Origin: Sphingobacterium siyangense
GTDB lineage: Bacteria; Bacteroidota; Bacteroidia; Sphingobacteriales; Sphingobacteriaceae
Direction of reading: 5' to 3'
Assembly: GCF_007830445.1 (NCBI RefSeq)
Contig: NZ_VLKR01000030.1
Coordinates: forward strand, 1 to 64,000
Length of the DNA stretch: 64,000 nucleotides
The position numbers were made by a program, and so were the translations under genes. The notes below the pieces were generated by a model that searched no databases, was not told where the DNA came from, and was given only the letters and a program-made list of their open reading frames with translations. Within the stretch, counting starts at the first letter, position 1, and every line of letters begins with the position of its first letter. This document shows positions 41,692-57,759 of the stretch, in pieces.

Positions 41692-41829
41692 ATGGAAAAG
41701 AAATTAAAAGAAATTAATGTTAGCGAGTTGGATGCAAATGAAGTGTTGGAGATTGAAGGAGGATCGGAGCGGGAGGGTGAGAAAAATACAAATTGGTTAG
41801 AATCCATATGGAATTATCTTAAACCTTAA
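41692..41829 (+). CDS. Double-glycine leader peptide 1 (bacteriocin-like precursor)
   Basis: A 45-aa peptide. The leader, residues 1-24, contains NVSELDANEVLEIEGG, the hydrophobic-x-E-L/M-D-A-x-E pattern ending in GG that C39 peptidase transporters cut. The predicted core is 21 aa, charged at first and ending NTNWLESIWNYLKP, without cysteines. It has its own palindrome promoter (P1). The stop codon region overlaps by 4 bp the stop of the convergent rhomboid-like gene. The matching transporter is encoded at 49201-51363. It could be a bacteriocin or a signalling peptide; core activity is unknown. Confidence 0.8.
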   Translation: MEKKLKEINVSELDANEVLEIEGGSEREGEKNTNWLESIWNYLKP

Positions 41830-42467
41830 AATGCGTCTTTCAATTCGATAGCATAGGGGCTCATAATTAGTGCTAATATGGAGCCAAGAACAAATGCGAC
41901 CAAGTGTAAGGATCTATTTATTTTGGATATTTTGATGAGGGAAAGTAGTACTGATGTTAGTAAAGCATATATCCAATAGTGCGTTGAATTATGAATCCAT
42001 GGAATGAATAAATGATTCATTTTTTGCAAAGGGAAAAATAGTCCAGAAAAACCGAATAGTCCAAAGGAAAGGCCAGATGAACCCACAGCGGTAAATGTGA
42101 AGTCTTTCTTTTTAAAAAGTGTTTGGATGAGATTTGGTAGGATTATAAGAAGGAGAAAAATAAATATGGTAAAGACGTAAGCAATAGTAATTCCGTGTGC
42201 TTGATTTAAGACAGCACACATATCATACCCTAATCCAAAAATTACAATACAATTAAACAAGAGGTGAATCCAGTTGCGATGAATCAAAGCCGAGGTAAGC
42301 AAAGTATGAATACGCTTACCTCTTGCTATTTCGTAGGGGTGCAGGATCAGTGCATGGAAAAACGATTTATTATAAAATCCAATGATGCTGCATACCAATA
42401 TAATCGGTACGACAATATAGGAATAGGGGGATTCGGCGAAAGTTGGGAATATATCAAAGAATTTCAT
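41826..42467 (-). CDS. Rhomboid-family intramembrane protease
   Basis: A 213-aa, six-helix membrane protein. HRNWIHLLFN (63-72) carries the conserved HxxxN. GSSG at 129-132 contains the expected nucleophile Ser131 and is followed by LSFGLFGF. His188 in SLHLVAFVLG completes the dyad. Rhomboids cut transmembrane segments; in quorum systems such as Providencia AarA they activate exporters. It is convergent with leader peptide 1, overlapping by 4 bp, and divergent from the Cx6C peptide operon. Codon use is AT-rich compared with nusG. Catalytic residues are present, so activity is plausible; the substrate is unknown. Confidence 0.82.
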   Translation of the reverse strand: MKFFDIFPTFAESPYSYIVVPIILVCSIIGFYNKSFFHALILHPYEIARGKRIHTLLTSALIHRNWIHLLFNCIVIFGLGYDMCAVLNQAHGITIAYVFTIFIFLLLIILPNLIQTLFKKKDFTFTAVGSSGLSFGLFGFSGLFFPLQKMNHLFIPWIHNSTHYWIYALLTSVLLSLIKISKINRSLHLVAFVLGSILALIMSPYAIELKDAF

Positions 42468-42559: not shown

Positions 42560-42634
42560 TATCGTTGATCAACAGAAGCAGTTGCCGAAAAAGCTTTAAA
42601 ATAGAGTAGGATTCAATAAATAATTTCTAATTTT

Positions 42635-42865: not shown

Positions 42866-42883
42866 CTCTATTTTATAACAAGT

Positions 42884-42904: not shown

Positions 42905-42930
42905 GCTGTATTTAATTTAAGCTATTTTTT

Positions 42931-43176
42931 ATGAAAATTATTTTAGTGAAAACTATAAGCACATTATGTGTTATGGTATGTGTATTTTTGTCTATGCATT
43001 CCTATGCGGGTACAAACGAGAAAGACCATGCTTCTACCTCCAATGGTGTTAGAATCTGTCCAGGAAGTGGATCTTCTTGTATTCTGTGGGGTTTGGTTTA
43101 TAAAGGTTCTGATAATTCTCATGTTGAACCAATGCCAGATGAGGAATCCCAACCAACACCCTCAGACAATCAGTAA
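42931..43176 (+). CDS. Secreted Cx6C mini-protein B
   Basis: An 81-aa paralogue of the preceding protein. It has signal peptide (TLCVMVCVFLSMHSYA), then ICPGSGSSCILWG with C43 and C50 at the same six-residue spacing, a KG step and an acidic tail (PDEESQPTPSDNQ). The conserved frame between the two is G-V-K/R-V/I-CPG-x-G-x2-C-V/I-LWG and D/E-ESQ-x-TP; the rest has diverged, so the pair is not a recent duplication. It lies 24 nt before the lipoprotein gene, in one operon. Confidence 0.82.
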   Translation: MKIILVKTISTLCVMVCVFLSMHSYAGTNEKDHASTSNGVRICPGSGSSCILWGLVYKGSDNSHVEPMPDEESQPTPSDNQ

Positions 43177-43200
43177 AATTTAAGTATATAAATTCATCTA

Positions 43201-44265
43201 ATGAAAATCCAATTGTTAATACCAAGTTTAGTGTTGTTGATTTCCTGTGGTTTAAAATCACCAAGCAGCTTCAATGCACTAGAAAAGCGAAATATTGTTG
43301 TTTGTGATGCACTTCAAATTGAAGGAAAGACCATCTACGGTGATTTGCAAAATGATTTGGAGGCTGTACCTTATACTAAATCATTAAAACCTGCAGATTT
43401 TGGTGATAAACTATATCAAATAGCAAGTTCCAGTGTGGAACGGTATTATCTCAAAGAGAGTAATCAACAAGTTCATTATTGGGATGTTGCTAATCTTGAA
43501 CATCATACGATGGACCTATCAAAAAAATATCCCTTTGGATTGGTTATAGGACAAGATGAACATAGTATATATTTCTATAATTCATCTACAAAAGGAAAAA
43601 GTTTTGGTACGTATAACTTGGTTTCTGAAAAATGGAATATTGTCAATTTTGATGGATATACTGTAATTAGTACAGCCAAGCTCAGCAAGAAACCAGATGT
43701 TTTGCTATCCACAGGAGTAAAGGATGAAAAATTGGGTTTTTACCTTATTGATACCTTGCAACAAACTCAAACATTGATAAAAGCAATTGAGACTAAAGAT
43801 CCCGTTAATGGAGACCCTGGTGTCTATGGTGGTAAATTTTATGTATTCCAAGATCGTATACTGTATGTGTTCGATAATCGATCAAGCTTTTATGAATTTG
43901 ATCAAGACGGAAGATTTGTTCGTGAAATTACCACTATAGATACCTTTGATTTTAAGGGGAAGTCCAATAAGGCATACAATATACAGCTGGAAGGGTTGTA
44001 TAAAGGTCTAGAAATCTTTGACAATATTTTGTATGTACGGACAAATATTATCAGTACTAAAAATAGTTATATACTTTATGATCGGTATGATCTCGTGGAA
44101 GGAAAATATAAAGATAGCTTTAAGCTCAATTTTGATTTTGATATCAGTCAATATTCTTATCCCATCTTCACCAATCATTTAACGGCTGATAAGTTTAGCT
44201 TAATATTTGGGGATAAATATAGGTCTGGTCGTTATGCCAAGATTACGTTATTTTTCAAAAAATAA
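43201..44265 (+). CDS. Lipoprotein, probable six-bladed propeller-like
   Basis: A 354-aa protein with lipoprotein signal (IPSLVLLISC, Cys16). The mature part is beta-rich, with repeating aromatic and Asp/Lys-rich strands (e.g. YLIDTLQQ, LYVFDNRSSFYEFDQDGRF, ILYDRYDLVEGKYKDSF) spaced as in TolB/NHL-like propellers of Bacteroidota. No catalytic motif is visible. Its place next to small exported peptides suggests a surface or periplasmic binding protein for them. The propeller assignment is by pattern only. Confidence 0.7.
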   Translation: MKIQLLIPSLVLLISCGLKSPSSFNALEKRNIVVCDALQIEGKTIYGDLQNDLEAVPYTKSLKPADFGDKLYQIASSSVERYYLKESNQQVHYWDVANLEHHTMDLSKKYPFGLVIGQDEHSIYFYNSSTKGKSFGTYNLVSEKWNIVNFDGYTVISTAKLSKKPDVLLSTGVKDEKLGFYLIDTLQQTQTLIKAIETKDPVNGDPGVYGGKFYVFQDRILYVFDNRSSFYEFDQDGRFVREITTIDTFDFKGKSNKAYNIQLEGLYKGLEIFDNILYVRTNIISTKNSYILYDRYDLVEGKYKDSFKLNFDFDISQYSYPIFTNHLTADKFSLIFGDKYRSGRYAKITLFFKK

Positions 44266-44269
44266 CTTT

Positions 44270-44710
44270 ATGAAAAGATATCTTTTATATTTTATTGTAT
44301 CGGTTATACAATTTGGGCTTTTTGTGTTACTCATGATTTCTGTATATCAAAAGATTAAAAATTTTGAAACTTTCATGGATACATTAGTTGGAACTAATTT
44401 GTTTTATGTAAATTCCGTGAAGTATTTTGCGATAGCTGTGATCGTTGCGGAGTTGATTGTTGCTTTCTTCTTATTGGCCTATCGAAAAATAGGATTTTAT
44501 TTGACTATTCTTCTTTTTTCAGTTTATACCCTCTATATTATTATATTAGAATTATACTATTTTTATCCTTCCTGCGGCTGTGGTGGTATTATGGCGCAAT
44601 TACCATTCAAGGAACATTTAACTCTTAATCTTATTTATATAATTTTGGCTGCGATTAGTATTCTATTCGTGAGAAAATCAACATATGAAAAAAATATTGT
44701 TATCGTTTAG
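44270..44710 (+). CDS. MauE/DoxX-like four-helix membrane protein
   Basis: A 146-aa integral membrane protein with four helices (about 3-24, 50-68, 76-96 and 119-136). PSCGCGGIM sits before the last helix, the cysteine pattern of Bacteroidota MauE/DoxX-type proteins that handle thiol redox for exported proteins. The start at 44270 is chosen because the frame's earlier start (44207) lies inside the lipoprotein gene and adds a non-membrane segment. The gene overlaps the next by 26 bp, implying coupled translation. A role in disulfide formation of the Cx6C peptides is an attractive inference. Confidence 0.75.
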   Translation: MKRYLLYFIVSVIQFGLFVLLMISVYQKIKNFETFMDTLVGTNLFYVNSVKYFAIAVIVAELIVAFFLLAYRKIGFYLTILLFSVYTLYIIILELYYFYPSCGCGGIMAQLPFKEHLTLNLIYIILAAISILFVRKSTYEKNIVIV

Positions 44711-45395
44711 TTTTTGTATATATGCGTTACTTTGTGTTGCGCAAAATCAATATAAGATTACCTATAAAGGAACATTGCTTTCCTCTTCTCTCAATGCGAG
44801 ATTGGAGCAAGAAGTAAATGATCCAGTGTTTTTGCAAGGATATAAAGATTTGATTGAGGGTTTCGAAGTGCAATATGCATTGTATGTTGATGTATCCAAG
44901 GGGAGATCAATCCTCTTGGAACAGAAAGAAATTGGATTGGATGGTCCTCCCCCATTCAAACATTTATTCTCTTTTTATGATCAGGCCGGTAACCTATATT
45001 TTGAAGATCTATTCCGCGGTAAGCAATTTAAGGTGCGAGACTCGCCAGCAGTATTACAATGGGATGTAAAACAGGAAATAATGAAAGTTGGCAATTTTAA
45101 TTGCCGTAAAGCAGTCCTTAAGAATGATCCTTTCAATACCGTAGTATGGTTTTGTGAAGATTATCCGATTAGTTTTGGACCCTATATCGGAGCTAAACTT
45201 CCGGGTTTGGCAGTTTTGTTGGAGAATGATTACTATGTTATCAAAATCGATAAAATAACAAAAGAGGCATTTTCCAAGAATATCGAAAATCAAATGAATG
45301 CAGCTCAGAAAAAGACTGGTATTTCTTACGCCAAGTATAGAGAACAGGTAGCCCCTTTGCTAAAAAAGATGAAAACTGAAAATATTATTGATTAG
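44685..45395 (+). CDS. GLPGLI-family secreted protein
   Basis: A 236-aa protein with signal peptide (LLSFSFCIYALLCVAQ). The family's central features are present: YKITYKG near the N-terminus, CRKA followed by VVWFCEDYPISFGPY, and the eponymous motif as AKLPGLAVLLEN (about 171-182), with K replacing the first G of GLPGLI. GLPGLI proteins are periplasmic and often encoded beside a CarboxypepD-like/TonB-type barrel, as here (next gene, 8 nt on). Molecular role unknown. Confidence 0.88.
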   Translation: MKKILLSFSFCIYALLCVAQNQYKITYKGTLLSSSLNARLEQEVNDPVFLQGYKDLIEGFEVQYALYVDVSKGRSILLEQKEIGLDGPPPFKHLFSFYDQAGNLYFEDLFRGKQFKVRDSPAVLQWDVKQEIMKVGNFNCRKAVLKNDPFNTVVWFCEDYPISFGPYIGAKLPGLAVLLENDYYVIKIDKITKEAFSKNIENQMNAAQKKTGISYAKYREQVAPLLKKMKTENIID

Positions 45396-45403
45396 GACAA
45401 CAA

Positions 45404-47983
45404 ATGAGGTTTTGGTCGGGTATTTTCTTCATTTTTTCTTGTTATTGTGCTTCAGCTCAGCTGCTTGATGGTCGTGTAGTTTCCCGAACCAGTGGAGATC
45501 CGATTTCAGGAGCAATAATTAGTCTCTATAGTGTACAGGATTCTGATCGTATGCTGCACTATATGACGACGGACGACAAAGGCAGATACCGTTTGCGTGA
45601 ACATGGATTTCCGTTCATACTAAAGGTGAGATCTATGTCTTTTCAAACTTTTCGAACTAAAGTGAGTAAAGCATCTGATTTTCCTGCAGTGATCATGCTA
45701 AGCGATGAGTCTATTCGCATGGATGAAGTATTGGTAAATATGAACAAAGGCTTTGCGTCCTTTAATAATGATACGACGGTCTATAATCTTAAGGCTTTGA
45801 ATCTTCAAGATAGAGACAATCTGAAAGAGATTTTATTACGGATTCCTGGATTCAAAGTCGATGAAAATTACAAAATCGTGCATGGTGGGAAAGAGATTAA
45901 TAAAATTCTGATCAATGGTAAAGAAGTCTTCGAGTTTCAAAATAAAATAGCTTTGGAGAACATGGAATCTGGAATGTTAGATCACATAAGAGTGATTGCC
46001 AATTATCAGGATCCATTTCGTGTCAATCTTGGCAATGAGCATGAAGAGAAAGTGTTGGATCTAAAGGTGAAAGATAGTTTTACGAATATATTGAAAGGAA
46101 ATGTGGAAGCATTTCTAGGCTATAAGAATAAGTATAAATTTAAACCCTTTCTCTTTTATTTTGGCGACAATCTTTCTTTGTTTTCGTTGACGAATATCAA
46201 TAATGTCTTTGATAAGGACTGGTCGAGTGAGGATTATGCAGGCGCAATACGTTCTAACAATGTCGCTTCAAGTTATTATTCCTCTCAGAATAAGAAGGTA
46301 TTTTATACGAAGGACATTACGCTAAATAATGAATCTAGCTTATTGAATGCGACAATGATTAAAAAGAACACGGAGCGATATTCATTACAAGCGGTTCTGA
46401 ATTTAAATTATTTGAAGTCCATCCGACTCTCTGAAGAGAATTCCAGATTTTTAGGAAATAATCTTTATGAAAAAAATAGTACGGATAGTTTGCGCGCTAG
46501 AATGATCGGTACTATGTTGAATTTCCGATATAAATTGAGTGAAAGTAGTATTGCCAAAAATATCTTTTCCAGTTATCAAGACCGTTTGAAAGGAGAGGGA
46601 AGTTACGAATCAATATATCCTCAAACAAAGGAGCTTTTTAATCTCGGAGAGATGACGGAGCAGAGGAGCAATATTTTATCAAATCGTTTGACTTATGAGA
46701 CCAAGATAAATAATGCCTTAGCCTGGAATATGGGCTGGGACTGGAAAAATGAGATTTCAAGAGATACTTGGCAACTTCAATATTTAGAGACAACGAAAGA
46801 GCAGACTAATCGGAATAAACAGAATATTAAATTTTCAAGCAATGAAAGTATATTGCATACTAATTTGAGACAGCTTTTGGGAAAAGTAAATACACTTGTC
46901 TATGAATTATCTTATAGTAATATACATAATAGCTTTATTCCTGATAATATTAACCAAGCCAAAACGCGATATATAGCTCGCACAGAAGCAAATTTTAATT
47001 TAAAACGCTTTAACCTTCGTAGTACAATAGCCTTGCAGCGTCAAAGAATCGAAGTATTTGATTCTATATCTACTTCTACTTTTTTATTGGCTAACATTAA
47101 TTTGGATTACTTTTTGGATCGATTTAAGAAAAATCGTTTAATTTTTAATTGGGGAAGAACTACCCAAGCACCTGACGTCAAATCAGGGCTAAGCCAGCGC
47201 GTAATCTCTTATGATCAGACAATACTTGGAAACCATCAATTGCTGCATGATATTTATGCAATCAATACAGTAAAGCTCGGCTATTTATATGATTTTCCAT
47301 TTAAAGGGCAATCTTTTAGAATAAATCTCTATAGACAGCACAGTGAAAAAGCGCTGGTACAATTTATTGATATGACTTTTCCGCTTTTAAGAAATTTGAA
47401 ATTGGTTCAGGGGTATCGAAATGTAGGGCTAGATGTCTCTTATGCACAAAATCTTTTTAAAGATCAGTTTCCTATGAATGTTTCCTTGTTCTATAACTAT
47501 CAGAACAACCGCTCTTATCAGTTTTCGGGTGCTGGAGAATCGCAGATTAAGCAGCGGAATCATGGTTATATGCTAAATCTAAATTCTTTTTCCTCAGGAG
47601 CGATCAACATTTCTATGACCCTCAAAAACGATTATACACGGTATGGTTATCAAGATGGACTTCTAACGGATCAGAACTCACTAATGATTTTGTTGGGGCC
47701 AAAATTTAATCATAAAAGGACGGAATGGAAGACAATGCTTAAATATAGCGTTATAAATAGTGTTGATCAACGGCGCGAGTTTATGGATATAGATCTTTCC
47801 TCGGTATATATCATTAGTAAAAAGCTAGAACTGATATTGACTTGTGAAAACATGTTGCAGAATTTAGGTTTTAAAAACAACGCTGTTTTGTCTGTTTTTA
47901 ATAATCAAAATGGAATTGAAAATTTTCAATCTTTTAAGAATTTAGTTGGATATAGTGCGGTGGGTGTCAAGTACAGATTTTGA
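45404..47983 (+). CDS. TonB-receptor-like outer-membrane barrel with CarboxypepD-like N-terminal domain
   Basis: An 859-aa protein. It has a signal peptide (to about 19, CYCASAQ), a CarboxypepD_reg-like beta-sandwich (LLDGRVVSRTSGDPISGA onward), then a plug-like domain with LKEILLRIPGFKVD and INGKEVFEFQNKIALENM. A long C-terminal barrel ends GYSAVGVKYRF with the final Phe for BAM insertion. Proteins of this type act as outer-membrane transporters; with a GLPGLI partner they form a recurring Bacteroidota pair. It is the last gene of the P2 operon and 81 nt before the exporter genes. A role in moving or sensing the island peptides across the outer membrane is inferred. Confidence 0.85.
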   Translation: MRFWSGIFFIFSCYCASAQLLDGRVVSRTSGDPISGAIISLYSVQDSDRMLHYMTTDDKGRYRLREHGFPFILKVRSMSFQTFRTKVSKASDFPAVIMLSDESIRMDEVLVNMNKGFASFNNDTTVYNLKALNLQDRDNLKEILLRIPGFKVDENYKIVHGGKEINKILINGKEVFEFQNKIALENMESGMLDHIRVIANYQDPFRVNLGNEHEEKVLDLKVKDSFTNILKGNVEAFLGYKNKYKFKPFLFYFGDNLSLFSLTNINNVFDKDWSSEDYAGAIRSNNVASSYYSSQNKKVFYTKDITLNNESSLLNATMIKKNTERYSLQAVLNLNYLKSIRLSEENSRFLGNNLYEKNSTDSLRARMIGTMLNFRYKLSESSIAKNIFSSYQDRLKGEGSYESIYPQTKELFNLGEMTEQRSNILSNRLTYETKINNALAWNMGWDWKNEISRDTWQLQYLETTKEQTNRNKQNIKFSSNESILHTNLRQLLGKVNTLVYELSYSNIHNSFIPDNINQAKTRYIARTEANFNLKRFNLRSTIALQRQRIEVFDSISTSTFLLANINLDYFLDRFKKNRLIFNWGRTTQAPDVKSGLSQRVISYDQTILGNHQLLHDIYAINTVKLGYLYDFPFKGQSFRINLYRQHSEKALVQFIDMTFPLLRNLKLVQGYRNVGLDVSYAQNLFKDQFPMNVSLFYNYQNNRSYQFSGAGESQIKQRNHGYMLNLNSFSSGAINISMTLKNDYTRYGYQDGLLTDQNSLMILLGPKFNHKRTEWKTMLKYSVINSVDQRREFMDIDLSSVYIISKKLELILTCENMLQNLGFKNNAVLSVFNNQNGIENFQSFKNLVGYSAVGVKYRF

Positions 47984-48043: not shown

Positions 48044-48063
48044 TATTGTTGATTAAAACCAAG

Positions 48064-49164
48064 ATGAAAAGAACAAATATTATATACCTGCTGCTGATAG
48101 TGGCTATAATTATAGGGTTGATATTATTACCGCTTATCAAAGTGCCGATTTCAATTTCGGCACAGGGAATCGTCAGGCCTACGATGGAGAATACAAAGAT
48201 GCTATCCTTGGTCAGTTGCCGTATTATTGACAACCGTATAGTAGGCAACAATCAGCAGGTAAAACAGGGGGATACACTACTAATCATTGTTTCCGAAGAT
48301 CTGGAAAATAAATTGTCTCTAAATAAGGGTTTAACGGATGACTATGCGAGGCAAATCGCTGATCTAAAACTTATTCTTGATGGTAGGGCAAAAAGTCTGC
48401 AAAGTGGACAATATCAATTGGAATATCTGTCCATGGAACAACGTATGTCTGAAATACAGTCGCAGCTTACCTTAGCACGCCGTGAACTGGACCGACATAA
48501 TCAGCTATTCAGCCAGGGGGTGGTGTCCCAAGCAGAACTTGATAAAACGCAATACTCTTTTGAACAACTTGAAAATCAGTTTTTGACGATACGGAAGCAG
48601 CAGATGGCGCAATGGAGCGCTAAGTTGGTCGAACTGAAACAGAAAGCACAGTCGCTGTCGTCCGAGAAAAAGTCTATCTTGATTGATGGTCAAAATTATA
48701 TTGTTCGAGCGCCCATAACAGGTACAGTGGTTAATTTTAAAGGATATCAAAAAGGAGGACAGCTCGTGCAGGGACAGGATATTTTGGAAATTTCGCCAGA
48801 GGATCAGCTTATAGCTGAATGTATGGTGCCTGCCAAATCGATCGGCTATATTAAAAAGAATCAATCGGTCAAATTCCAGATGGACACGTATAATTATAAC
48901 CAATGGGGATTTCTTTCGGGGACAGTGCATGATATTGACTACAATCTGGTAAACGATCAACAAAAAGGATCCTTTTTTAAGGTCAGGTGCCGTATGGATC
49001 AAAACTTTCTGAGCCTCCCCAATGGAAATAAGGCCTTTGTAGGAAAGGGAAATACATTTAATGCGCGGTTTTACCTCTTGGACCGTACGTTATGGCAGCT
49101 CCTGTTCGATCGGGCCGACAATCTGTTCAATCCAAATCTTGGCGCTAAAACGAGCGCATTATAA
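48064..49164 (+). CDS. HlyD-family membrane-fusion protein of the peptide exporter
   Basis: A 366-aa protein from ATG 48064; the frame opens 18 nt earlier at a TTG, but the ATG gives MKRTNIIYLLL followed by a single anchor helix. A sandwich strand (ISISAQGIVRP) is followed by a coiled coil (about 85-205, Gln-rich), the returning strand YIVRAPITGTVVNFKGYQKGG and a barrel. HlyD proteins bridge an ABC exporter and a TolC channel; both follow in the same operon. It is the first gene after promoter P3. Confidence 0.9.
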   Translation: MKRTNIIYLLLIVAIIIGLILLPLIKVPISISAQGIVRPTMENTKMLSLVSCRIIDNRIVGNNQQVKQGDTLLIIVSEDLENKLSLNKGLTDDYARQIADLKLILDGRAKSLQSGQYQLEYLSMEQRMSEIQSQLTLARRELDRHNQLFSQGVVSQAELDKTQYSFEQLENQFLTIRKQQMAQWSAKLVELKQKAQSLSSEKKSILIDGQNYIVRAPITGTVVNFKGYQKGGQLVQGQDILEISPEDQLIAECMVPAKSIGYIKKNQSVKFQMDTYNYNQWGFLSGTVHDIDYNLVNDQQKGSFFKVRCRMDQNFLSLPNGNKAFVGKGNTFNARFYLLDRTLWQLLFDRADNLFNPNLGAKTSAL

Positions 49165-49200
49165 AAATTTCTTTATTAATCTGACAACAGTAAATTTGTA

Positions 49201-51363
49201 ATGAAAAAATCTCCTGTTTGCATTAAGCAGCACGATATCCGTGACTGTGGGGCGGCCTGTCTGGCTTCTATTGCGGGCTATTATGGTACACATATTCCTA
49301 TTGCCAAGATTAGACAATTCTGTCACACCGATACGCGTGGTACCAATGTGTTAGGTATGGTTCAAGGACTGCAACAAATGGGTTTTAATGCCAAAGGTGT
49401 CAAGGGCGCTATAGATGCCATTCCGCAGAGACCTTTACCAGCAATTGCCCATGTTGTGCTCAAAGAGCAGCTCCAACACTATGTGGTAATCTATCAGGTG
49501 GAAAAGGATAAAATTACGGTGATGGATCCTGGTTTGGGAAAAGTAGAAAAATATACCTTTGAGGCCTTTCAGAAGATTTGGACTGGGGTGTTGATCTTAA
49601 TGGAACCCAATGAATATTTTGAACAGAAAAATGAGAAGATCGATGTTTACAAGAGATTCTGGAATCTGATCCGGCCGCATCGCTCGGTGATCGTTCAGGC
49701 ACTGGTGGGAGCTGCTGTGTATACGCTGCTGGGGCTTTCAACATCGTTTTACATTGAGAAAATTACCGATTATGTACTGGTCGATGGCAATCTGCGCTTA
49801 TTGAACCTTCTTTCGATCGGTATGTTGGTCATTCTGATTTTTCAGTTGCTCATTGGTACATTGAAAAGTGTCATGGTCCTGCAGACGGGGCAAAGGATCG
49901 ATAAATACCTGATTTTGGGTTACTATAAGCACTTGCTGAGCCTTCCGCAACGCTTCTTTGATACAATGAAAGTAGGCGAGATTATATCGCGGGTCAATGA
50001 TGCAGTCAAAATTCGTGCTTTTATCAACGATGTAGCCATACAAGCGGTCGTTAATGTGTTGATCGTAGTCTTTTCCTTTGCGCTTATGTTTACCTACTTC
50101 TGGAAGCTGGCTTTGATCATGTTGCTTGTTATCCCTTTTTATCTTGGGGTCTATTGGCTTTCGAATAAACTGAACAAAAAAGTAGAGCGCCGGATGATGG
50201 AAGAAGGGGCCGAACTGGAATCTCATCTGGTCGAATCGCTCAATTCGGTCAAGACTATCAAGCAGTTTGGTATTGAAACTTATTTTAATAGTGGTACAGA
50301 CAATCGGTTTTCGCATGTATTGAAAACCATTTATGCCTCGGTGATGAATGGCTTGTTTTCCAGTACCTCTGGCGAGTTATTGTCACGGTTATTTACCATT
50401 ATCCTCTTATGGGTTGGCTCATACTATGTGATCGAACGTACGATCACACCGGGAGAACTACTCTCATTTTACGCCCTGATCGGTTATTTTACAGGTCCGG
50501 TGACGCAATTGATCGGCATGAACAAGACATTGCAAAATGCATTGATTGCAGCAGATCGCCTGTTTGAAATTATGGATCTGGAGCGCGAAGAATCAGAAGA
50601 AAAATTACAGCTTACTTCGGATCTGGTTGGGGATATTGTCTTTGATAATGTTCGTTTTTCTTACGGATCACGGGTAGAGGTATTCCGAAATTTTAGCTGC
50701 CGGATACAACAGAGCAAGATGACGGCTGTGATCGGAGAAAGTGGAAGCGGTAAGACTACGCTGGGAGCGCTTATTCAACAGCTGTATCCATTACAGGAGG
50801 GGAAGATTTCTATTGGGCAATACGATCTGAACTATATTTCGAAGAGCTCCCTTCGGGAACGCATTGCCATCGTGCCCCAACAGATCGATCTTTTTTCGGG
50901 TAATATTGTCAGCAATATTGCTGTTGGTGAGGATATCCCCAATTTTCAGCGTCTCTTGCAGGTGGTCAATGAATTGGACATGATGTCTTTTATTGAAAAG
51001 TTGCCAGCCGGTTTTGAAACTCAGCTGGGTGAAAATGGATCCATGCTATCCGGTGGACAGCGGCAACGAATTGCCATTGCACGAGCATTATACCGCAATC
51101 CGGACATTCTGATTTTAGACGAAGCAACTTCAGCTTTGGATACTTCAACAGAACAGGTAATCCAGCGGGCATTCCGTCGCTTTAAAGATTCGGGTAAGAC
51201 GATGATTGTGATTGCCCATCGGTTGAGTACGATTGCCGAGGCCGATACCATTATGGTGCTTAAAGATGGTGTACTTATCGAACAAGGGGAGCATAATCAG
51301 TTGTTAGCCCAAGAGTCTGCCTATAAGGATATGTGGAAAAAGCAATCGATCGTGTTAAACTAA
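49201..51363 (+). CDS. Peptidase-containing ABC transporter (C39 peptidase exporter)
   Basis: A 720-aa half-transporter that removes double-glycine leaders and exports the core peptide. The C39 peptidase at about 5-135 has Gln10, Cys16 (IRDCGAAC), His93 (LQHYVVIY) and Asp109 (VMDPG), so the catalytic set is complete. A six-helix membrane domain (about 165-440) follows. The ATPase has GESGSGKTT, LSGGQRQRIAIARAL, LILDEATSALD and H-loop VIAHRLST. Its natural clients here are the leader peptides at 41692, 53158 and 53347. It lies between the HlyD and TolC genes, so the exporter is complete. Confidence 0.95.
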   Translation: MKKSPVCIKQHDIRDCGAACLASIAGYYGTHIPIAKIRQFCHTDTRGTNVLGMVQGLQQMGFNAKGVKGAIDAIPQRPLPAIAHVVLKEQLQHYVVIYQVEKDKITVMDPGLGKVEKYTFEAFQKIWTGVLILMEPNEYFEQKNEKIDVYKRFWNLIRPHRSVIVQALVGAAVYTLLGLSTSFYIEKITDYVLVDGNLRLLNLLSIGMLVILIFQLLIGTLKSVMVLQTGQRIDKYLILGYYKHLLSLPQRFFDTMKVGEIISRVNDAVKIRAFINDVAIQAVVNVLIVVFSFALMFTYFWKLALIMLLVIPFYLGVYWLSNKLNKKVERRMMEEGAELESHLVESLNSVKTIKQFGIETYFNSGTDNRFSHVLKTIYASVMNGLFSSTSGELLSRLFTIILLWVGSYYVIERTITPGELLSFYALIGYFTGPVTQLIGMNKTLQNALIAADRLFEIMDLEREESEEKLQLTSDLVGDIVFDNVRFSYGSRVEVFRNFSCRIQQSKMTAVIGESGSGKTTLGALIQQLYPLQEGKISIGQYDLNYISKSSLRERIAIVPQQIDLFSGNIVSNIAVGEDIPNFQRLLQVVNELDMMSFIEKLPAGFETQLGENGSMLSGGQRQRIAIARALYRNPDILILDEATSALDTSTEQVIQRAFRRFKDSGKTMIVIAHRLSTIAEADTIMVLKDGVLIEQGEHNQLLAQESAYKDMWKKQSIVLN

Positions 51364-51380
51364 CTGTTGTTTTTTATTCA

Positions 51381-52727
51381 ATGATGAACAATTATCAAAG
51401 AAGTAGGATAAAGTGTTGGTTTATTACTATAAACATACTGTTATCTACGAATGTACTGGCGCAGCGAGCCTGGACTTTACAGGATTGTATCGACTATGCT
51501 GTGGCTCATCATCTGCCGATCAAACAGCAGGACATCAAGGCTAAGATAAAAGTGCTGGATCAGGAAATGGCAGTGCGGGAACGCTTGCCAAGTGTGAGCG
51601 GCTACGCAAATGGTTATACCACTTTTGGATCATCACAGGATGTGTTTGGTACGATTCGGCGCAATGACAACCTGAATAGCAACATGGGGATCAATGCGGA
51701 GCTGACCCTATACCAATATAACTATTTTCGAAACCAGGCCAAGAAAGCTGCTTCCGAAGCGGAACAGGAACATATCGAAAAAGAGATATTGAAACGGAAT
51801 CTTACCGTTCAGCTGATGGAAGCCTATCTGCAGACCTTGCTGGCTCAGGCACTGCTGGTCTCACAGGATTCGGCCATGCAGTTTTCACAGCAACTCTTGG
51901 ATAAGGCCCAGAAAAGTACGGCGGTAGGGGCAACAGCAGTGTCGGTAGTTGCCGAAGCAAAAGCCAATCTGGCACGGGAGAAACAGCAATACCAACAATA
52001 TCACAAAGATAGACAACAGTCCTTGCTCAAACTAGCCCAGCTGATGAACTACCCGGACTATAATAACTTAAGCCTGGCTGTCCCAGTAGCGGAGAGTGAT
52101 CTTCTGCAAGAGCATACTTTTTCGGATATATCGAACCTGCGGGAAGAAGCTTATTTGCATAATCCGGTATTTGCTAAGTTTCGAAGTCAAGCTGTTGGAC
52201 TTGAGGTCGAGTCCAAGTTGGTTAAAGCAGCGTTATTTCCGACGGTAAAGGGATCCGCTGGCTTGGGAAGTACCTATTTCAATGCTTTTAAAGCGGACAA
52301 TACGCGATCTTTTTTTGTACAGAGTAAAGACAACTTTGCCCAGCAGCTCGCTGTGACGGTTTCGGTGCCCATCTTCAACAAAGGAAAAACAAAACGTCAG
52401 TTGAAGCAGATCGACTTGAACCAGCAAAATATACAATTGGCGATTGATAATGAAAAGTTTGCTCAGCAGCAGATCTTAGATAAGCTATTGCTTGAATTGG
52501 ATGAGAACAGAAAGCAATATGGTATTGCGGTAGAAGCGAGCACGGCAACAGCGCAATCTTTGGATTACACCTTGCGGAGTTTTGAAGCGGGCAAGGCATC
52601 GATCTATGATGTCAATACGAGTAAAAGTAATTTGATTAAAGCGGAGTCGGAAACGATCCGCAGCAAATATACTGTGGTGTTCAATCAGCTCATGCTGCGC
52701 TATCAGATTTATGGATCGATAAATTAA
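51381..52727 (+). CDS. TolC-family outer-membrane channel of the peptide exporter
   Basis: A 448-aa outer-membrane factor. The signal (WFITINILLSTNVLAQ) leads to two OEP repeats (WTLQDCIDYAVAHHLPIKQQD at the start). Glu/Gln-rich coiled helices and SVPIFNKGKTKRQL mark the second half. The frame opens at 51333 inside the transporter gene, but ATG 51381 (or 51384) gives a normal signal peptide. It completes the tripartite peptide exporter and is unrelated at close range to the other TolC-type gene at 30402. Confidence 0.9.
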   Translation: MMNNYQRSRIKCWFITINILLSTNVLAQRAWTLQDCIDYAVAHHLPIKQQDIKAKIKVLDQEMAVRERLPSVSGYANGYTTFGSSQDVFGTIRRNDNLNSNMGINAELTLYQYNYFRNQAKKAASEAEQEHIEKEILKRNLTVQLMEAYLQTLLAQALLVSQDSAMQFSQQLLDKAQKSTAVGATAVSVVAEAKANLAREKQQYQQYHKDRQQSLLKLAQLMNYPDYNNLSLAVPVAESDLLQEHTFSDISNLREEAYLHNPVFAKFRSQAVGLEVESKLVKAALFPTVKGSAGLGSTYFNAFKADNTRSFFVQSKDNFAQQLAVTVSVPIFNKGKTKRQLKQIDLNQQNIQLAIDNEKFAQQQILDKLLLELDENRKQYGIAVEASTATAQSLDYTLRSFEAGKASIYDVNTSKSNLIKAESETIRSKYTVVFNQLMLRYQIYGSIN

Positions 52728-52734: not shown

Positions 52735-53067
52735 ATGAAGCTATTTCAATATATAGATCGGATTAATTTGTTGGACAAGTTGATCCGCCAAAGAAGGAAG
52801 GGGACGCAGTCAGAACTAGCAGTCCGCCTCGGGCTTTCTGTGTCACGATTGGCCCGTATTATTGAATATCTTAGAGATATTGGTGCTCCAATTACTTTTG
52901 ATAGATCGCTTAATACGTATTACTATGAAAAAGACTATTCAATCCAAATCAAGGTAGAGGTTCAGCAGGAAAATATTCATTTGCTTGATTTAAATCAGAT
53001 GAGACAAGCAAATGCGGGTGATAATTTTATTTCAAATCATTTTCTGAATGCTTTTTTTGTGCATTGA
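52735..53067 (+). CDS. HTH_11-type putative DNA-binding protein
   Basis: A 110-aa protein with an N-terminal winged HTH: LLDKLIRQRRKGTQSELAVR, then LGLSVSRLARIIEYLRDIGAPI and a wing ending TYYYEKDYSIQIK. The remaining 40 residues are polar. DeoR-like HTH_11 proteins of this size can be repressors or anti-repressors. It lies 7 nt after tolC in the exporter operon and just upstream of leader peptides 2 and 3, so it may control them. Confidence 0.75.
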   Translation: MKLFQYIDRINLLDKLIRQRRKGTQSELAVRLGLSVSRLARIIEYLRDIGAPITFDRSLNTYYYEKDYSIQIKVEVQQENIHLLDLNQMRQANAGDNFISNHFLNAFFVH

Positions 53068-53073: not shown

Positions 53074-53133
53074 GTAATTTAGTAGTGTTGATCAATAGAG
53101 CAGGAATCCGAAAAGGCTAACAATAGAGTAGGG
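53074..53133 (+). promoter_or_regulatory. Leader region copied from P2, upstream of leader peptides 2 and 3
   Basis: About 52 nt (53082-53133) match the P2 leader (42559-42611): both contain GTTGATCAA/T-AGA, CCGAAAA and AATAGAGTAGG in the same order. TAATTTAG at 53075-53082 stands at the -7 place (TAnnTTTG with one change). The palindrome and TTG of the -33 region are not present, so activity without an activator is doubtful. Confidence 0.45.
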
Positions 53134-53157
53134 ACTAATTTTTTATAAATCAAAAAA

Positions 53158-53334
53158 ATGAATACATTAGATTTAAAAGGTTTCGGTGTTCAGGAAATGG
53201 ATGCGAAAGAAATGGAAGTAGTTGATGGGGGATGGTGGCAAGCTGCTTTGGGGACATTTTTATATAATGTCGTTGCTGATTGGAGACAAAACGTTGCTGC
53301 ATTTGAAAGAGGAATAAATGGTGAAGCTTTATAA
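53158..53334 (+). CDS. Double-glycine leader peptide 2 (bacteriocin-like precursor)
   Basis: A 58-aa peptide. Leader GFGVQEMDAKEMEVVDGG (ending at residue 25) shares V-x-E-L/M-D-A-x-E-V/M and the GG site with leader peptide 1. The predicted 33-aa core begins WWQAALGTFLYNVVADW, aromatic and amphipathic, and ends FERGINGEAL; it has no Cys. It lies 12 nt upstream of leader peptide 3, so a two-peptide bacteriocin is possible. A decayed copy is present at 57432-57575. Too short for standard ORF calling but supported by the repeat of leader, spacing and pseudogene. Confidence 0.82.
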   Translation: MNTLDLKGFGVQEMDAKEMEVVDGGWWQAALGTFLYNVVADWRQNVAAFERGINGEAL

Positions 53335-53346
53335 ACTTGTAAATTT

Positions 53347-53511
53347 ATGAACAAAATAGAACTAACAGAATTGACTAATTCTGAGATTATTGAAGTAAAC
53401 GGTGGAGATGGTATGACAGAAGCTTTTTTTTGGGTTTTAGGTCGATTTTTTCAGGCTCAACAGAGAGATCTAGATGGATCCATTGGTGGCCCTACAGCAA
53501 TTCATGGGTAA
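53347..53511 (+). CDS. Double-glycine leader peptide 3 (bacteriocin-like precursor)
   Basis: A 54-aa peptide. Leader MNKIELTELTNSEIIEVNGG (GG at 19-20) is followed by a 34-aa core with hydrophobic AFFWVLGRFFQ and a Gly-rich end SIGGPTAIHG; there are no cysteines. It follows leader peptide 2 after 12 nt and precedes a hairpin and a CPBP-family gene. The pairing of two short GG peptides with a CPBP protein is the usual layout of class II bacteriocin loci, where CPBP proteins give immunity. Whether it kills or signals is not known. Confidence 0.8.
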   Translation: MNKIELTELTNSEIIEVNGGDGMTEAFFWVLGRFFQAQQRDLDGSIGGPTAIHG

Positions 53512-53546
53512 TTTAGTGCTTTGAAAATAAAAACTATTTTACGTAA

Positions 53547-53574
53547 GAACCTAAGTACTTTACTACTTAGGTTC
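53547..53574 (+). terminator. Perfect 11-bp hairpin after leader peptide 3
   Basis: GAACCTAAGTA (53547-53557), loop CTTTAC, TACTTAGGTTC (53564-53574), then GTCCTAATTTT. It can terminate or attenuate the peptide transcript before the CPBP gene, giving much peptide and little membrane protein. Confidence 0.65.
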
Positions 53575-53591
53575 GTCCTAATTTTGATTTA

Positions 53592-54185
53592 TTGAAACAA
53601 AAAATAAAACTTTTAATATTTGGTACTTTACAATCAAGTATTATATTGATTGTGTTTTTTCTATTGTTTGGCTTAGATATAGCCTCCAATACTATTACCA
53701 TGTCTGATCAATTTAATATCTTTCTAATATGTATCTGTACAGCTTTTTTTGAAGAGATTGTCTTTCGGTATTATTTGATTCGCGGGTTGAGTAGATTTTT
53801 TAATAAGAAAAAATCAGTAATAATTTCCGCTGTGTTATTTGCTGCATGTCATCTAGGAAATTCTCATTTTACGACCACAGCATTTGCTTCCCATTTTCTA
53901 GGTGGTATAATTTATGCATATGCTTATATTCATACGAAATCTATATATTATCCTGTTGGATTACACTTCGGTTGGAATTATATTCAATGGTTATTTTCAC
54001 TTCCAATGAGTGGAACAACAAAAAGTGGTTTATATAGTCTTATTTTGCCAACCAATGATTATTGGTTGGGAGGAAATTATGGGATAGAAGGAGGGTTTGC
54101 AAGTCTTCTGATTAGGAGTATCTTGTTTGGCGTTATCTTATTTACAGTTTCCAGATATGAAAGAAATGCACACGTGAATTATTAG
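53592..54185 (+). CDS. CPBP-family intramembrane metalloprotease, possible immunity protein
   Basis: A 197-aa multi-helix protein with the three CPBP motifs: FFEEIVFRYYLIRG (EExxxR), FAACHLGNSH (FxxxH) and LHFGWNYI (HxxxN/B). These residues make the Rce1/Abi active site, so it is probably active. The start appears to be TTG at 53592, as no ATG is available in frame near the beginning. CPBP proteins near GG peptides often give self-immunity or process peptides. The gene is markedly AT-rich. Confidence 0.85.
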   Translation: MKQKIKLLIFGTLQSSIILIVFFLLFGLDIASNTITMSDQFNIFLICICTAFFEEIVFRYYLIRGLSRFFNKKKSVIISAVLFAACHLGNSHFTTTAFASHFLGGIIYAYAYIHTKSIYYPVGLHFGWNYIQWLFSLPMSGTTKSGLYSLILPTNDYWLGGNYGIEGGFASLLIRSILFGVILFTVSRYERNAHVNY

Positions 54186-54653
54186 GTTTCGGTTTTCTAT
54201 TAATGTTAACATTTTATTTATATATGGGCCCAAAATAAGTAAAAAAGGGGAGAGTAGCATGATATTGAAATTATTAAAAAGTTGTGAATATAAGAATTAT
54301 TCCATTGGATTGGGCTTTAAATTAAGATATTTAAATTATGTTGTTAGTAAAAAGTCATAACTTGATTATTATATTTGGCTATCGAATTTTTCTAATTTTG
54401 CTACTTATCCGTGCAATGGTTGCACATAATCAAAAAAATAAAGCCCGTATATAAATTAATACCACTAAATAATGATGAATCGCAGGCTATAAGAATAAAC
54501 TATGGTATAAATTTATAGGAGAAAAGCATCTTCTATAAATATAATTTGAAGACATTATTACTTTTTCTACCCTAGTTCAAAGAAAGTAATGGTGTTTTGA
54601 CTTGTGCTATTGGCAATTGAAGAGTAGTTGATGAGAATAATGTGAGAAAATTA
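54186..54653. other. AT-rich intergenic region
   Basis: A stretch of 468 bp with no supported gene. One 33-codon frame (54259-54360, MILKLLKSCEYK...) is open but has no leader motif, repeat or homologue in the window. No promoter of the island type was found. Confidence 0.5.
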
Positions 54654-55259
54654 ATGAATGAATTAATAGATTATCCAGGGTTTGTTGTAGAGCCGAGATT
54701 GATTAGTATGTCTAAAGCTAACATGATAGGCATGTTGTTTTTCGCTGTTTTCATTCTCTTATACGGGATACCTTTTTGTTTACTGTGGGATCTAAAGGAA
54801 GAGCTGGCGGCAATTAAAGATAGCCTATATAATAAAGCTTCGAATGCATGGTGGGTTTATGGTATTGTCATTATTATCGGTGTCGTTCTTCATGAATTGA
54901 TTCATGGCATTGTATTCGCATCCTTTGCGAAGCAAGGTTTCAAATCCATAAAGTTTGGAATTATTTGGAAAATGCTCACTCCATATGCTCATTGCAAAGA
55001 ACCGTTACGGGTAAGACCTTATATGTTAGGTGTAGTTATGCCTTTTCTCCTTGTTGGCTTTTTACCCGCGATTTATTCAATTTTTACTGGAAATTTACCA
55101 CTTTTATTTTTTGCAATTTTCTTCTCTGGTGCGGCAGTCGGAGATTTCATGATTTTAAATTTAATTTATAAAGAGAATAAAGATAACCTGGTACTTGATC
55201 ATCCTACTGAGGGAGGTTGCTTTATTTTGAAAAAGGTTACTAATCCAGCGGATTTGTGA
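54654..55259 (+). CDS. DUF3267-type putative membrane metalloprotease
   Basis: A 201-aa protein from ATG 54654; the frame opens at GTG 54642. It has helices at about 25-45, 70-90, 128-148 and 152-172. HELIHG in VVLHELIHGIVFASF (about 85-99) is a zinc-binding HExxH, followed by the conserved YAHCKEPLRVRPY and GDFMILNLI. DUF3267 proteins are predicted zinc membrane peptidases. A truncated, stop-containing copy lies at 56458-56767. With the rhomboid and CPBP proteins, this island encodes three classes of membrane protease. Confidence 0.8.
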   Translation: MNELIDYPGFVVEPRLISMSKANMIGMLFFAVFILLYGIPFCLLWDLKEELAAIKDSLYNKASNAWWVYGIVIIIGVVLHELIHGIVFASFAKQGFKSIKFGIIWKMLTPYAHCKEPLRVRPYMLGVVMPFLLVGFLPAIYSIFTGNLPLLFFAIFFSGAAVGDFMILNLIYKENKDNLVLDHPTEGGCFILKKVTNPADL

Positions 55260-55405: not shown

Positions 55406-55537
55406 ATGGAAACTAAAATAATTTTATTATTTGTAGTAATAATAGCTATTCTGGCATTTTGTGTCTATCTGCTATCTAATGTCGGCGAATTTATTCGAGG
55501 ATTTGAAGATGGTTTTAATGCGGCCAAAAATAAATAA
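55406..55537 (+). CDS. Single-helix membrane peptide A
   Basis: A 43-aa peptide: METK, a transmembrane helix (about 5-24, IILLFVVIIAILAFCVYLL), then a short amphipathic tail, GEFIRGFEDGFNAAKNK. The same plan, and the F-I-x2-F-x-x-G-F/Y-N-x3-NK tail, recurs in the peptide at 59091. Both have the same promoter type and sit directly before a secreted-protein gene. It lies 19 nt upstream of the TraB/GumN gene. No double-glycine leader, so not a C39 substrate. It could be a toxin-like, regulatory or membrane-anchored signalling peptide. Confidence 0.72.
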   Translation: METKIILLFVVIIAILAFCVYLLSNVGEFIRGFEDGFNAAKNK

Positions 55538-55556
55538 AAACCTTAAATTTAAACGG

Positions 55557-56405
55557 ATGAAAAAACACTTTATTCTTCTATTACTTTTTTTTATAATCAC
55601 TTTTAGTGGTTTTGCGCAGGGGAATTCGATGCTGTGGAAAATCTCGGGAAATGGACTTAAACAAGATTCCTATCTGTTTGGTACGATCCACATGTTGTGC
55701 CCTGACGATTTTGAGATCAAACAAAAATGCCTGGATGCGCTTAATTCGAGTCAGAAAGTCGTATTTGAAGTGGATCTGTCGAAACCTGAAAATATGGAGG
55801 TCCTACAGGCATTTGCCGTACCTGACCCTAGTTTTATTAAAAACTTTACCGATAGCGAAGTGCGTAAAATGGATAGCGTCTTGTTGGCACAGCAGCTTTC
55901 AATTAAATTATTGGATCATGTTTCACCGGTAACAATGGCTTCCTTATTTTCAATGAAAGGCTTTAATTGTCCTGATCCAACAAAGTTGAAATCATATGAA
56001 ATTGAGCTATCGGCTCTGGCCTCCGCTCAGGGTAAAACAATTGGCGAACTTGAAACAGCTGATTATCAATTCGGGTTATTGAAAGACTTGATTACGCCAA
56101 AGTTATTTATGGACTGGGTATTGCAGTTGGATAAATATCCCGCTCTAACGGCCAGAATGGTCAATGCCTATAAAAATGAAAACCTCAAAGAATTAACTGC
56201 ATTGATTGAGGATCCTACATGGATGTCTGTCGAACAGAAAGAAAAGCTCTTGACAGGGCGGAATGTAAACTGGACAACGATTATTCCGAATTTGATCAAA
56301 GACCAGGGGTGCTTTATTGCTGTGGGAGCTGGACACCTGTCTGGTGAAAAGGGCTTGATCTCGTTACTTAGAGCAAAAGGTTATAGCTTGACGGCAATTG
56401 ATTAG
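55557..56405 (+). CDS. TraB/GumN-family secreted protein
   Basis: A 282-aa protein from ATG 55557; an earlier in-frame start at 55461 overlaps the membrane peptide gene and delays the signal peptide. It has a signal (FILLLLFFIITFSGFAQ), then the family landmarks: MLWKISGNG, SYLFGTIHMLC with the conserved GTxH, VVFEVDLSKPE and the C-terminal AVGAGHLSGEKGLI (GxxH). TraB/GumN proteins include the metal-dependent Tiki-like peptidases, and the GTIH and GAGH histidines are kept. In enterococci TraB interferes with a peptide pheromone, so a peptide-inhibiting role here would fit but is only analogy. Confidence 0.85.
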   Translation: MKKHFILLLLFFIITFSGFAQGNSMLWKISGNGLKQDSYLFGTIHMLCPDDFEIKQKCLDALNSSQKVVFEVDLSKPENMEVLQAFAVPDPSFIKNFTDSEVRKMDSVLLAQQLSIKLLDHVSPVTMASLFSMKGFNCPDPTKLKSYEIELSALASAQGKTIGELETADYQFGLLKDLITPKLFMDWVLQLDKYPALTARMVNAYKNENLKELTALIEDPTWMSVEQKEKLLTGRNVNWTTIIPNLIKDQGCFIAVGAGHLSGEKGLISLLRAKGYSLTAID

Positions 56406-56457
56406 GATTGTTATTTTTTGAGATAAAGGAAGTATAGTACCTTGATAGGATACGCTT

Positions 56458-56767
56458 ATTGTTTTTCGATGGTCTCATCGTTTTATATGGAGTGCCCTTT
56501 TATTTATTGTGGGATCTAAAGAAAGAGCTGGCGGCAATTAAAGATCGCCTATATCATAAAGTTTCGAATGCATGATGGGTTTATGGCATTGCCATTATTA
56601 TCGGTGTCGTTCTTAATGAATTGATTCATGGTATTGTATTCGTATCCTTTGCGAAGCAAGGTTTTAAATCTATAAAGTTTGGAATTATTTGGAAAATGCT
56701 CACCCCATATGCTCATTGCAAAGAACCGTTACGGGTAAGACCTTATATGTTAGGTGTAGTTATGCCT
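56458..56767 (+). pseudogene. Decayed, truncated copy of the DUF3267 gene
   Basis: The sequence parallels 54730-55040 of the DUF3267 gene almost base for base. A Trp codon is now TGA (56573-56575), the HELIHG motif is NELIHG, and the similarity stops abruptly after ATGCC at 56767. Both the start and the C-terminal third are missing. The copy is young enough to be aligned by eye over 300 bp. Confidence 0.88.
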
Positions 56768-56820
56768 TAAAGTTTTAATTTATAACTTATGAAGTCGCTT
56801 AAGATCACTATCTAAAATGA

Positions 56821-56944: not shown

Positions 56945-57427
56945 ATGTCAAAATATATAAATCGATTGTTGAAATTACCTGTGCTTTATTTATATACTCT
57001 TATGATAGTTTCTTATCTGAGTATTGATGTTTTGTGTCACGTAATACTTATTGATTTATTCAAGTTTGAATCGGTTTCAAATGCGGTAACTCGAGATCAA
57101 AGTATATTGAAAATATTCATATATGCACTAATTTTAGGGCCATTTTTTGAGACATTACTATTTCAATTTATACCCGTAAAACTTCTGTCTACATATGTTT
57201 TTTTTAAAAAGAAAAAAATATGGATAGTTTTAATTTCTGCCCTTCTTTTCGCTTTGACTCATTTATATAGCTCTTATTATTTCATTTATACTTTTTTGAT
57301 GGGTATAAATTTAGTCTTATTCTTTTTTATTATGGAGTTTAAGAATAAAGGTTCAGGACTTTGGCATACCACATTGCTACATGCTATTATTAATCTAATG
57401 GTTTTTATCCATCAATATTTTAGATAA
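56945..57427 (+). CDS. Divergent CPBP-family membrane protein
   Basis: A 160-aa protein with about four helices. The CPBP motifs are recognisable but altered: FFETLLFQFIP (first Glu of EExxxR replaced by F, Arg by Gln), FALTHLYSSY (FxxxH kept) and LLHAIINLM (HxxxN kept). Loss of one Glu and of the Arg suggests it is not a protease; catalytically altered CPBP proteins are known among bacteriocin immunity proteins. It lies directly upstream of a decayed leader-peptide pair, repeating the peptide-CPBP association of 53158-54185 in reverse order. Confidence 0.72.
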   Translation: MSKYINRLLKLPVLYLYTLMIVSYLSIDVLCHVILIDLFKFESVSNAVTRDQSILKIFIYALILGPFFETLLFQFIPVKLLSTYVFFKKKKIWIVLISALLFALTHLYSSYYFIYTFLMGINLVLFFFIMEFKNKGSGLWHTTLLHAIINLMVFIHQYFR

Positions 57428-57431: not shown

Positions 57432-57615
57432 ATTTTGGCGTGCAGTAATCGATTTCCAAAAAAATAGTCGAAATTGATGGGGGATAAGCTACATTGTACA
57501 TTTTATAATGGTGTTTCTGATTGGAGCCAAAATGTTGCTATATTTGAGCGAAGTCTAAATAGTTGAGCTTTATAAAAGATGTATGCTACGAACAAAGTAA
57601 AGTTAACAGAATTCT
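57432..57615 (+). pseudogene. Decayed copies of leader peptides 2 and 3
   Basis: 57432-57575 aligns with leader peptide 2: the GATGGGGGA cleavage region, then the frame fragments VSDWSQNVAIFERSLN against VADWRQNVAAFERGIN and the same ending AGCTTTATAA. A TAA directly after the GG and a TGA near the end break it. 57588-57615 keeps the beginning of leader peptide 3 (TNKVKLTEF against MNKIELTEL) with ATG changed to ACG, then stops. The remnant proves that the peptide pair existed here in an older duplicate. Confidence 0.8.
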
Positions 57616-57759
57616 GAATATAAACTGGATAACGATTATTCCGAATTTGATCAAAGATCAGGGTTGCTTTATTACTGTGGGAGCTGGACACCTCTCTGGT
57701 GAAAAGGGCTTGATCTGGTTACTTAGAGCAACAGGTTATAGCTTGATAGTAATTGATTT
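57616..57759 (+). pseudogene. 3' fragment of a TraB/GumN gene
   Basis: About 144 bp match the last 48 codons of the TraB/GumN gene at 55557-56405: NINWITIIPNLIKDQGCF and VGAGHLSGEKGLIWLLRAT against NVNWTTIIPNLIKDQGCF and VGAGHLSGEKGLISLLRAK. It has no start or signal peptide and is joined directly to the leader peptide remnant, so an ancestral deletion fused the two. Confidence 0.88.

Follow-up and report, generated by a model that had tools for sequence, protein, structure and literature searches.

A candidate class IIb-like two-peptide bacteriocin beside a C39 exporter in Sphingobacterium siyangense

Analysis of a 64,000-nt stretch of the S. siyangense genome (the window, meaning here the whole stretch) led to two adjacent peptide genes, P1 and P2. 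Judging from sequence comparison, and with a probability of roughly 0.78, they encode a class IIb-like two-peptide bacteriocin of a Gram-negative bacterium, exported by a HlyD-C39-TolC system and with a CPBP protein for immunity. A sequence-only reading of the same DNA had already proposed a likely two-peptide bacteriocin, and this proposal is supported by the pairing of the two genes (9/9 loci), the neighbouring CPBP gene (7/9), conserved leaders combined with variable cores, a linked exporter and the likeness of the two peptide families to the two halves of lactococcin G/enterocin 1071. The known unmodified two-peptide bacteriocins come from Gram-positive organisms; searches of openly licensed papers found none in Sphingobacterium or Bacteroidota. 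Both peptide genes sit downstream of the exporter genes (48046-52727), in the following arrangement:

48046..49164, forward strand: HlyD-type membrane fusion protein (Pfam HlyD_3, 3e-13)
49201..51363, forward strand: C39-peptidase ABC exporter, predicted leader cleaver (Peptidase_C39, 6.5e-37)
51378..52727, forward strand: TolC-family outer-membrane channel (Pfam OEP, 2e-33)
52735..53067, forward strand: HTH110, a small helix-turn-helix protein and putative regulator (from exporter-locus neighbourhoods)
53098..53134, forward strand: probable DUF805b RNA (Rfam RF02914), 23 nt ahead of P1 (34.6 bits against a gathering threshold of 35.6, E 1.8e-6)
53158..53334, forward strand: P1, GG-leader peptide of 58 aa, predicted core WWQAALGTFLYNVVADWRQNVAAFERGINGEAL (leader profile, genus conservation)
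53347..53511, forward strand: P2, GG-leader peptide of 54 aa, predicted core DGMTEAFFWVLGRFFQAQQRDLDGSIGGPTAIHG (leader profile, genus conservation)
53547..53574, forward strand: perfect 11-bp hairpin between P2 and the CPBP gene (fold z -2.1)
53592..54185, forward strand: CPBP (type II CAAX, Rce1-like) membrane protease with a TTG start, putative immunity protein (Pfam PF02517)

P1 and P2 are real GG-leader peptide genes. Their coordinates, their lengths, the 12-nt gap between them and both GG sites agreed with the earlier reading on re-check; the leaders measure 25 aa (P1) and 20 aa (P2) and neither core contains cysteine. A leader HMM was built from 17 leaders of other genomes, with the window's own peptides left out, and it scored P1 at 23.9 bits, P2 at 17.5 bits and a third peptide, at position 41692, at 22.2 bits. 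The best other ORF in the rest of the 64 kb reached 3.3 bits and the maximum over 20 random windows was 9.9. The pattern V-x-E-(L/M)-D-A-x-E had been described as common to leader 2 and the 41692 peptide; this was mistaken, as it is leader 1 that carries it (VQEMDAKEM), leader 2 being MNKIELTELTNSEIIEVNGG. Neither peptide matched Pfam, and P1 missed the cut-off of 21.5 bits of TIGR03949 (class IIb bacteriocin, lactobin A/cerein 7B) by 1.5, with a score of 20.0 bits that came mostly from the leader. Sequence searches of PDB and Pfam with the peptides or the CPBP protein returned nothing useful except the CPBP domain itself. Structure predictions gave one core helix for each peptide, at low confidence (pLDDT 55-57).

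P1 and P2 profiles were run over 94 genomes of the genus, together with neighbourhood maps. A full-length P2-type peptide was detected in nine of them (G000, which is the window's genome, G108, G011, G064, G012, G009, G070, G083 and G063), and at all nine loci a P1-type peptide lies directly upstream on the same strand, the order always being P1 then P2. Adjacent GG-leader precursors that are conserved as a pair are a trait of class IIb systems, as is a dedicated C39-peptidase ABC exporter, present here at 49201-51363 with a TIGR01193 score of 525.9 bits, above the cut-off of 523.85, and linked to the majority of the pair loci. The P2 cores have a common C-terminal tail, (A/S)Q-x-x-x-(L/V/M)(D/N)-(G/N)-x-(I/L)-(G/S)-G-P-(T/S)-A, and most P1 cores a common (Y/F)(D/N)-x-V-x-D ... 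(F/V)-x-x-G-(F/I) region. Apart from one leader-only match, no P2 relatives were found outside the genus in 395 genomes of the class. It is extremely improbable that the two ORFs are open merely by chance and do not represent genes: they are short and without a Pfam match, but their frames and GG leaders are conserved in nine genomes and their leader scores are far above those of chance ORFs.

Between species the leaders are conserved and the cores variable. At the same locus position, G016 encodes a nearly identical leader (MNTLDLKGFGVQEMNAKEMMEIDGG) followed by an unrelated core. Comparison of the window with G108 revealed no nucleotide difference over the 342 nt of P1 and P2, against a divergence of 4.4% in the upstream region, 2.5% in the spacer and 4.6% in the CPBP gene; identity of the pair amid diverged flanks suggests that it was exchanged recently or is under strong constraint. 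Among the closely related P1-type genes of G010, G111 and G115, dN/dS was ~0.04-0.07. A degraded duplicate is also established in the window, directly after a second CPBP gene:

56945..57427, forward strand: second CPBP protein, with the variant motif ETLLFQ (Pfam 2e-11, motif alignment)
57464..57613, forward strand: degraded second copy of P1 and of the start of P2, core remnant FYNGVSDWSQNVAIFERSLNS (sequence comparison)

In this dead copy the leader ends in IVEIDGG followed by a stop, the core survives as a remnant, and the P2 start codon has changed from ATG to ACG.

The CPBP protein downstream of the pair matches PF02517 with 78.4 bits (gathering threshold 22.4, E 5e-22). It harbors EEIVFR, FAACH and HFGWN, that is, the complete set of EExxxR, FxxxH and HxxxN, so that its earlier description as active-site-complete holds. 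In seven of the nine pair genomes a CPBP gene lies within ~80 nt downstream of the pair, the pairs of G083 and G063 being without an adjacent one, and since the 6.3-Mb genome encodes only eight CPBP genes in total, a CPBP gene next to the pair by chance is unlikely. The CPBP of S. faecium DSM 11690 (G011) has EELFFS where EExxxR is expected. Furthermore, ETxxFQ replaces EExxxR in many CPBPs neighbouring GG peptides (L050, L052, L053, L054, L055, L061, L063 and the window's 56945-57427), which retain the first Glu, the His and the HxxxN residues and possibly represent a variant immunity clade. The perfect hairpin reported between P2 and the CPBP gene was found again, and a hairpin precedes the CPBP gene in all seven CPBP-bearing pair loci. 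Those of G011, G012, G009 and G070 are unrelated in sequence (z -5.6 to -7.1), which indicates that structure and not sequence is kept; the hairpins of G108 and G064 are near-copies of those of the window and of G011, respectively.

With respect to known bacteriocins, the pair presents its closest likeness to lactococcin G and enterocin 1071, and we label the two families of the genus as lactococcin G-beta-like (P1) and lactococcin G-alpha-like (P2). The model of lactococcin G-beta/enterocin 1071B (NF038034) was matched by P1 relatives (G070 at 1.5e-6, G012 and G009 more weakly), and that of lactococcin G-alpha/enterocin 1071A (NF038035) by five of eight P2 relatives (best 1.9e-5). The best relatives scored 28.3 and 24.7 bits on these models, whose curated cut-off is 37 bits; the window's own P1 and P2 matched neither of the two. 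Control GG peptides matched NF038034 through their leaders, so the matches to this model are partly leader-driven, and none of ten controls matched NF038035. Because of the low scores and the leader-driven matches, the comparison was repeated with cores only, using as references the sequences of PDB 2jpj and 2jpk and, for enterocin 1071, the genes on plasmid pEF1071. The P2 core profile scored 13.7 bits against lactococcin G-alpha, which was reached by 0 of 2000 shuffles and 0 of 39 control GG cores, and 2.3 bits against enterocin 1071A (26 of 2000 shuffles); with leaders removed, it did not pick the beta peptides. The P1 core reached a marginal 3.0 bits against enterocin 1071B (61 of 2000 shuffles), so that the similarity of P1 to the beta cores is suggestive. 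Two adjacent GG-leader peptides and a C39 exporter are common to all these systems, and near the N-terminus the cores of the P2 family have D-(I/L)-G-x-x-(I/F)-G in common with lactococcin G alpha. However, the Sphingobacterium pair has a Gram-negative host and net negative cores, its order is beta-like then alpha-like whereas pEF1071 has alpha then beta, and the conserved P2 tail LDGxIGGPTAxH is non-basic while the alpha peptide of lactococcin G has a basic tail. Taken from these comparisons, the pair probably works like lactococcin G and is probably a distant relative of it, but is not classed as a member of its family.

Several observations count against the class IIb-like reading. Class IIb peptides are usually cationic, and the net charge was negative in all 14 cores analysed (-1 to -3). 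Four P1 cores out of seven contain GxxxG, and four of the seven P2 cores contain GxxxGxxxG (shuffle P 0.007), the kind of motif through which helices of class IIb peptides typically make contact (PMC8538875). In the window itself, however, the P1 core has only the GxxxG-like AFERG, and the only GxxxG of P2 is GSIGG in the tail, outside the predicted helix. The sub-cut-off model matches, the two pairs lacking CPBP and the altered motif of S. faecium weigh on the same side.

Three further explanations have to be considered. P1 and P2 could be two independent one-peptide bacteriocins with a shared operon, exporter and immunity gene, given that exporter loci of this type hold many further, unrelated GG peptides, frequently paired and in some cases single (L061, L065, L067), and that some P1-type cores have no P2-type partner. 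Since every P2-type peptide is accompanied by a P1-type peptide from a single core family (9/9), and the two families resemble the halves of a single known pair, we regard this as quite unlikely. Alternatively, P1 and P2 might be secreted signal peptides (pheromones), with the CPBP protein as their processing protease or receptor. Pheromones are among the GG-leader substrates of C39 exporters, some systems use CPBP proteins for peptide processing, and the small HTH gene adjoins the pair. This explanation is nevertheless very unlikely, because it is the cores that vary between species and the leaders that are kept, no sensor kinase was found adjacent, and a better signal candidate exists in the same locus, namely the 41692-type peptide.

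Finally, the CPBP protein may not serve self-protection at all, immunity being located elsewhere or absent, as in producers of bacteroidetocins, which have no immunity protein (PMC6671954). The two pairs without CPBP and the ETxxFQ motif that replaces EExxxR in many nearby CPBPs fit such a view. Against it stand the position of a CPBP gene directly downstream of the pair at seven of nine loci and the examples of PlnI, PlnL and SkkI, CPBP/Abi proteins that act as immunity proteins of lactic acid bacteria (PMC8538875), and we consider it unlikely.

Under the two-peptide bacteriocin reading, the C39 domain would cut each leader after GG and the tripartite HlyD-C39-TolC exporter would release both cores. 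These would jointly assemble into a helical complex in the inner membrane of related cells that lack immunity, and the membrane would leak. As in the case of lactococcin G, the cores may dock on UppP/BacA, which is the receptor of lactococcin G and of enterocin C (PMC8538875, PMC12765074), and as a speculation the conserved P2 tail could engage an entry receptor. The producer would be shielded by the adjacent CPBP membrane protease in the manner of PlnI, PlnL and SkkI. The hairpin between P2 and the CPBP gene would limit or stabilise read-through, leading to different amounts of peptides and immunity protein, and P1 expression is probably under the control of the DUF805b RNA that closely precedes it. 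If true, a paired, CPBP-protected system would mean that class IIb biology reaches beyond the outer-membrane barrier, and UppP would become a testable target in Gram-negative bacteria.

The gene layout also resembles the class IIb plantaricins EF and JK, in which two GG-leader peptides are followed by a CPBP membrane-protease immunity gene, PlnI or PlnL (PMC8538875). These systems are Gram-positive and export without a TolC-type channel, and the likeness noted here is one of layout. The bacteroidetocins, class II bacteriocins of Bacteroidales (PMC6671954), belong like the present pair to Bacteroidota and are unmodified peptides with a GG leader and a C39-ABC exporter. However, they are single peptides with four cysteines, a leader of 15-16 aa and no immunity protein (PMC6671954), whereas the Sphingobacterium locus encodes two cysteine-free cores, longer leaders and a CPBP gene; neither P1 nor P2 thus has the single four-cysteine core that defines that group. 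A cluster of a GG peptide, a CAAX protease and a C39B transporter, the same three gene types, was detected by genome mining in Bacteroides, likewise of Bacteroidetes (PMC4573289), but its one putative precursor belongs to a different peptide family (PF14406), and the cluster was not described as a two-peptide system.

The third GG peptide of the window is established tail-to-tail with a rhomboid gene:

41692..41829, forward strand: separate conserved GG peptide, core SEREGEKNTNWLESIWNYLKP (leader profile)
41826..42467, reverse strand: rhomboid protease linked to the 41692 peptide (Pfam 5e-12)

Together with an XRE regulator they form a conserved unit of regulator, short GG (or AG) peptide and rhomboid protease (41210-42467; in L129, 5205-5997). 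Cores of this type start with (E/Q)R(K/E/N)xxK, and the 3' ends of the peptide and rhomboid genes overlap or nearly touch. The peptide was identified in 21 of 94 genomes of the genus, and an intact copy lies beside the rhomboid gene in 19 of 20 rhomboid-bearing loci of the exporter type, the exception, in G092 (L062), being a broken copy. One copy, found in G099 by the peptide profile alone, has no exporter nearby and yet is accompanied by the rhomboid and XRE genes, which shows that the linkage is not an artefact of locus choice. All three peptides had been tied to the one C39 exporter; for the 41692 peptide only the shared leader type and the location speak for this, and it belongs to its own rhomboid-linked unit. 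Conservation of its core fits a signal or a housekeeping substrate better than a toxin under diversification; we reject it as a third bacteriocin subunit and regard it as a candidate signal or rhomboid substrate. No described function was found for the peptide-rhomboid unit.

A further membrane peptidase is located downstream of the pair:

54642..55259, forward strand: DUF3267 membrane zinc peptidase, possible further immunity protein (Pfam 5e-22)

A degraded copy of it lies at 56449-56770. DUF3267 genes are also located near GG peptides within exporter loci in L052 (5305-5883), L062 (14868-15470), L061 (6481-7071) and L069 (14070-14660), those of L052 and L062 adjoining another type of pair. 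A constant tie between DUF3267 and GG peptides was considered and is weakened, as most of the 38 DUF3267 copies of the genus are away from exporters; among the copies examined, only those of G063 and G064, both near exporters, have a GG-type leader within 1.5 kb, and a degenerate one at that. A wider scheme, which we hold to be doubtful, would have a lactococcin G-type bacteriocin cross the outer membrane of another cell and attack UppP, within a set of C39-exported GG peptides that share the DUF805b RNA and are each served by an intramembrane protease as immunity or sensing protein (the two-peptide type would have CPBP, the conserved 41692 type rhomboid, and a third type the zinc peptidase DUF3267).

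Concerning DUF805b, the copy of G108 at the same place scores 40.6 bits, above the gathering threshold. The region upstream of the first peptide aligns as conserved in 18 loci, and genus-wide the RNA lies 19-25 nt upstream of the match start for 27 of 39 P1-profile matches. It is also found upstream of unrelated genes, and the window bears a second copy at 42575-42612, 22 nt ahead of the gene at 42635. The distance from the HTH110 stop to the first peptide is 86-96 nt in nearly all exporter loci, and this stretch is conserved in most of them whatever the core type. The locus offers a clear context for DUF805b, which is an Rfam RNA of unknown function.

The exporter island, roughly 20 kb in the window, is flanked by nusG (38994) and rplK (60763). 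The same position is occupied in G108, where the island is split over two stretches (halves in L049 and L088), and in G016, G018 and G074; in other genomes the island is located elsewhere. The nusG-rplK interval in this ribosomal-protein region is a possible insertion hotspot for it. The block at 42635-47983 is missing between the rhomboid and HlyD genes of G108; it encodes two related small secreted proteins (VCPGDGKGCVLWG and ICPGSGSSCILWG), a possible beta-propeller protein, MauE, a GLPGLI-like protein and a CarboxypepD_reg outer-membrane-type protein. The locus also has a gene of the TraB/PrgY/gumN family at 55461-56405 (Pfam 5e-49), with a partial duplicate at 57616-57758 (92% identity over 143 nt); relatives of PrgY act on peptide pheromones in enterococci. 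At the other end of the window, around 11 paralogous permease-like proteins of 786-823 aa are arranged in tandem at 484-28430 around one ABC ATPase (25295-25987), followed by a HlyD-like protein and, close by, a TolC-like protein and a two-component system.
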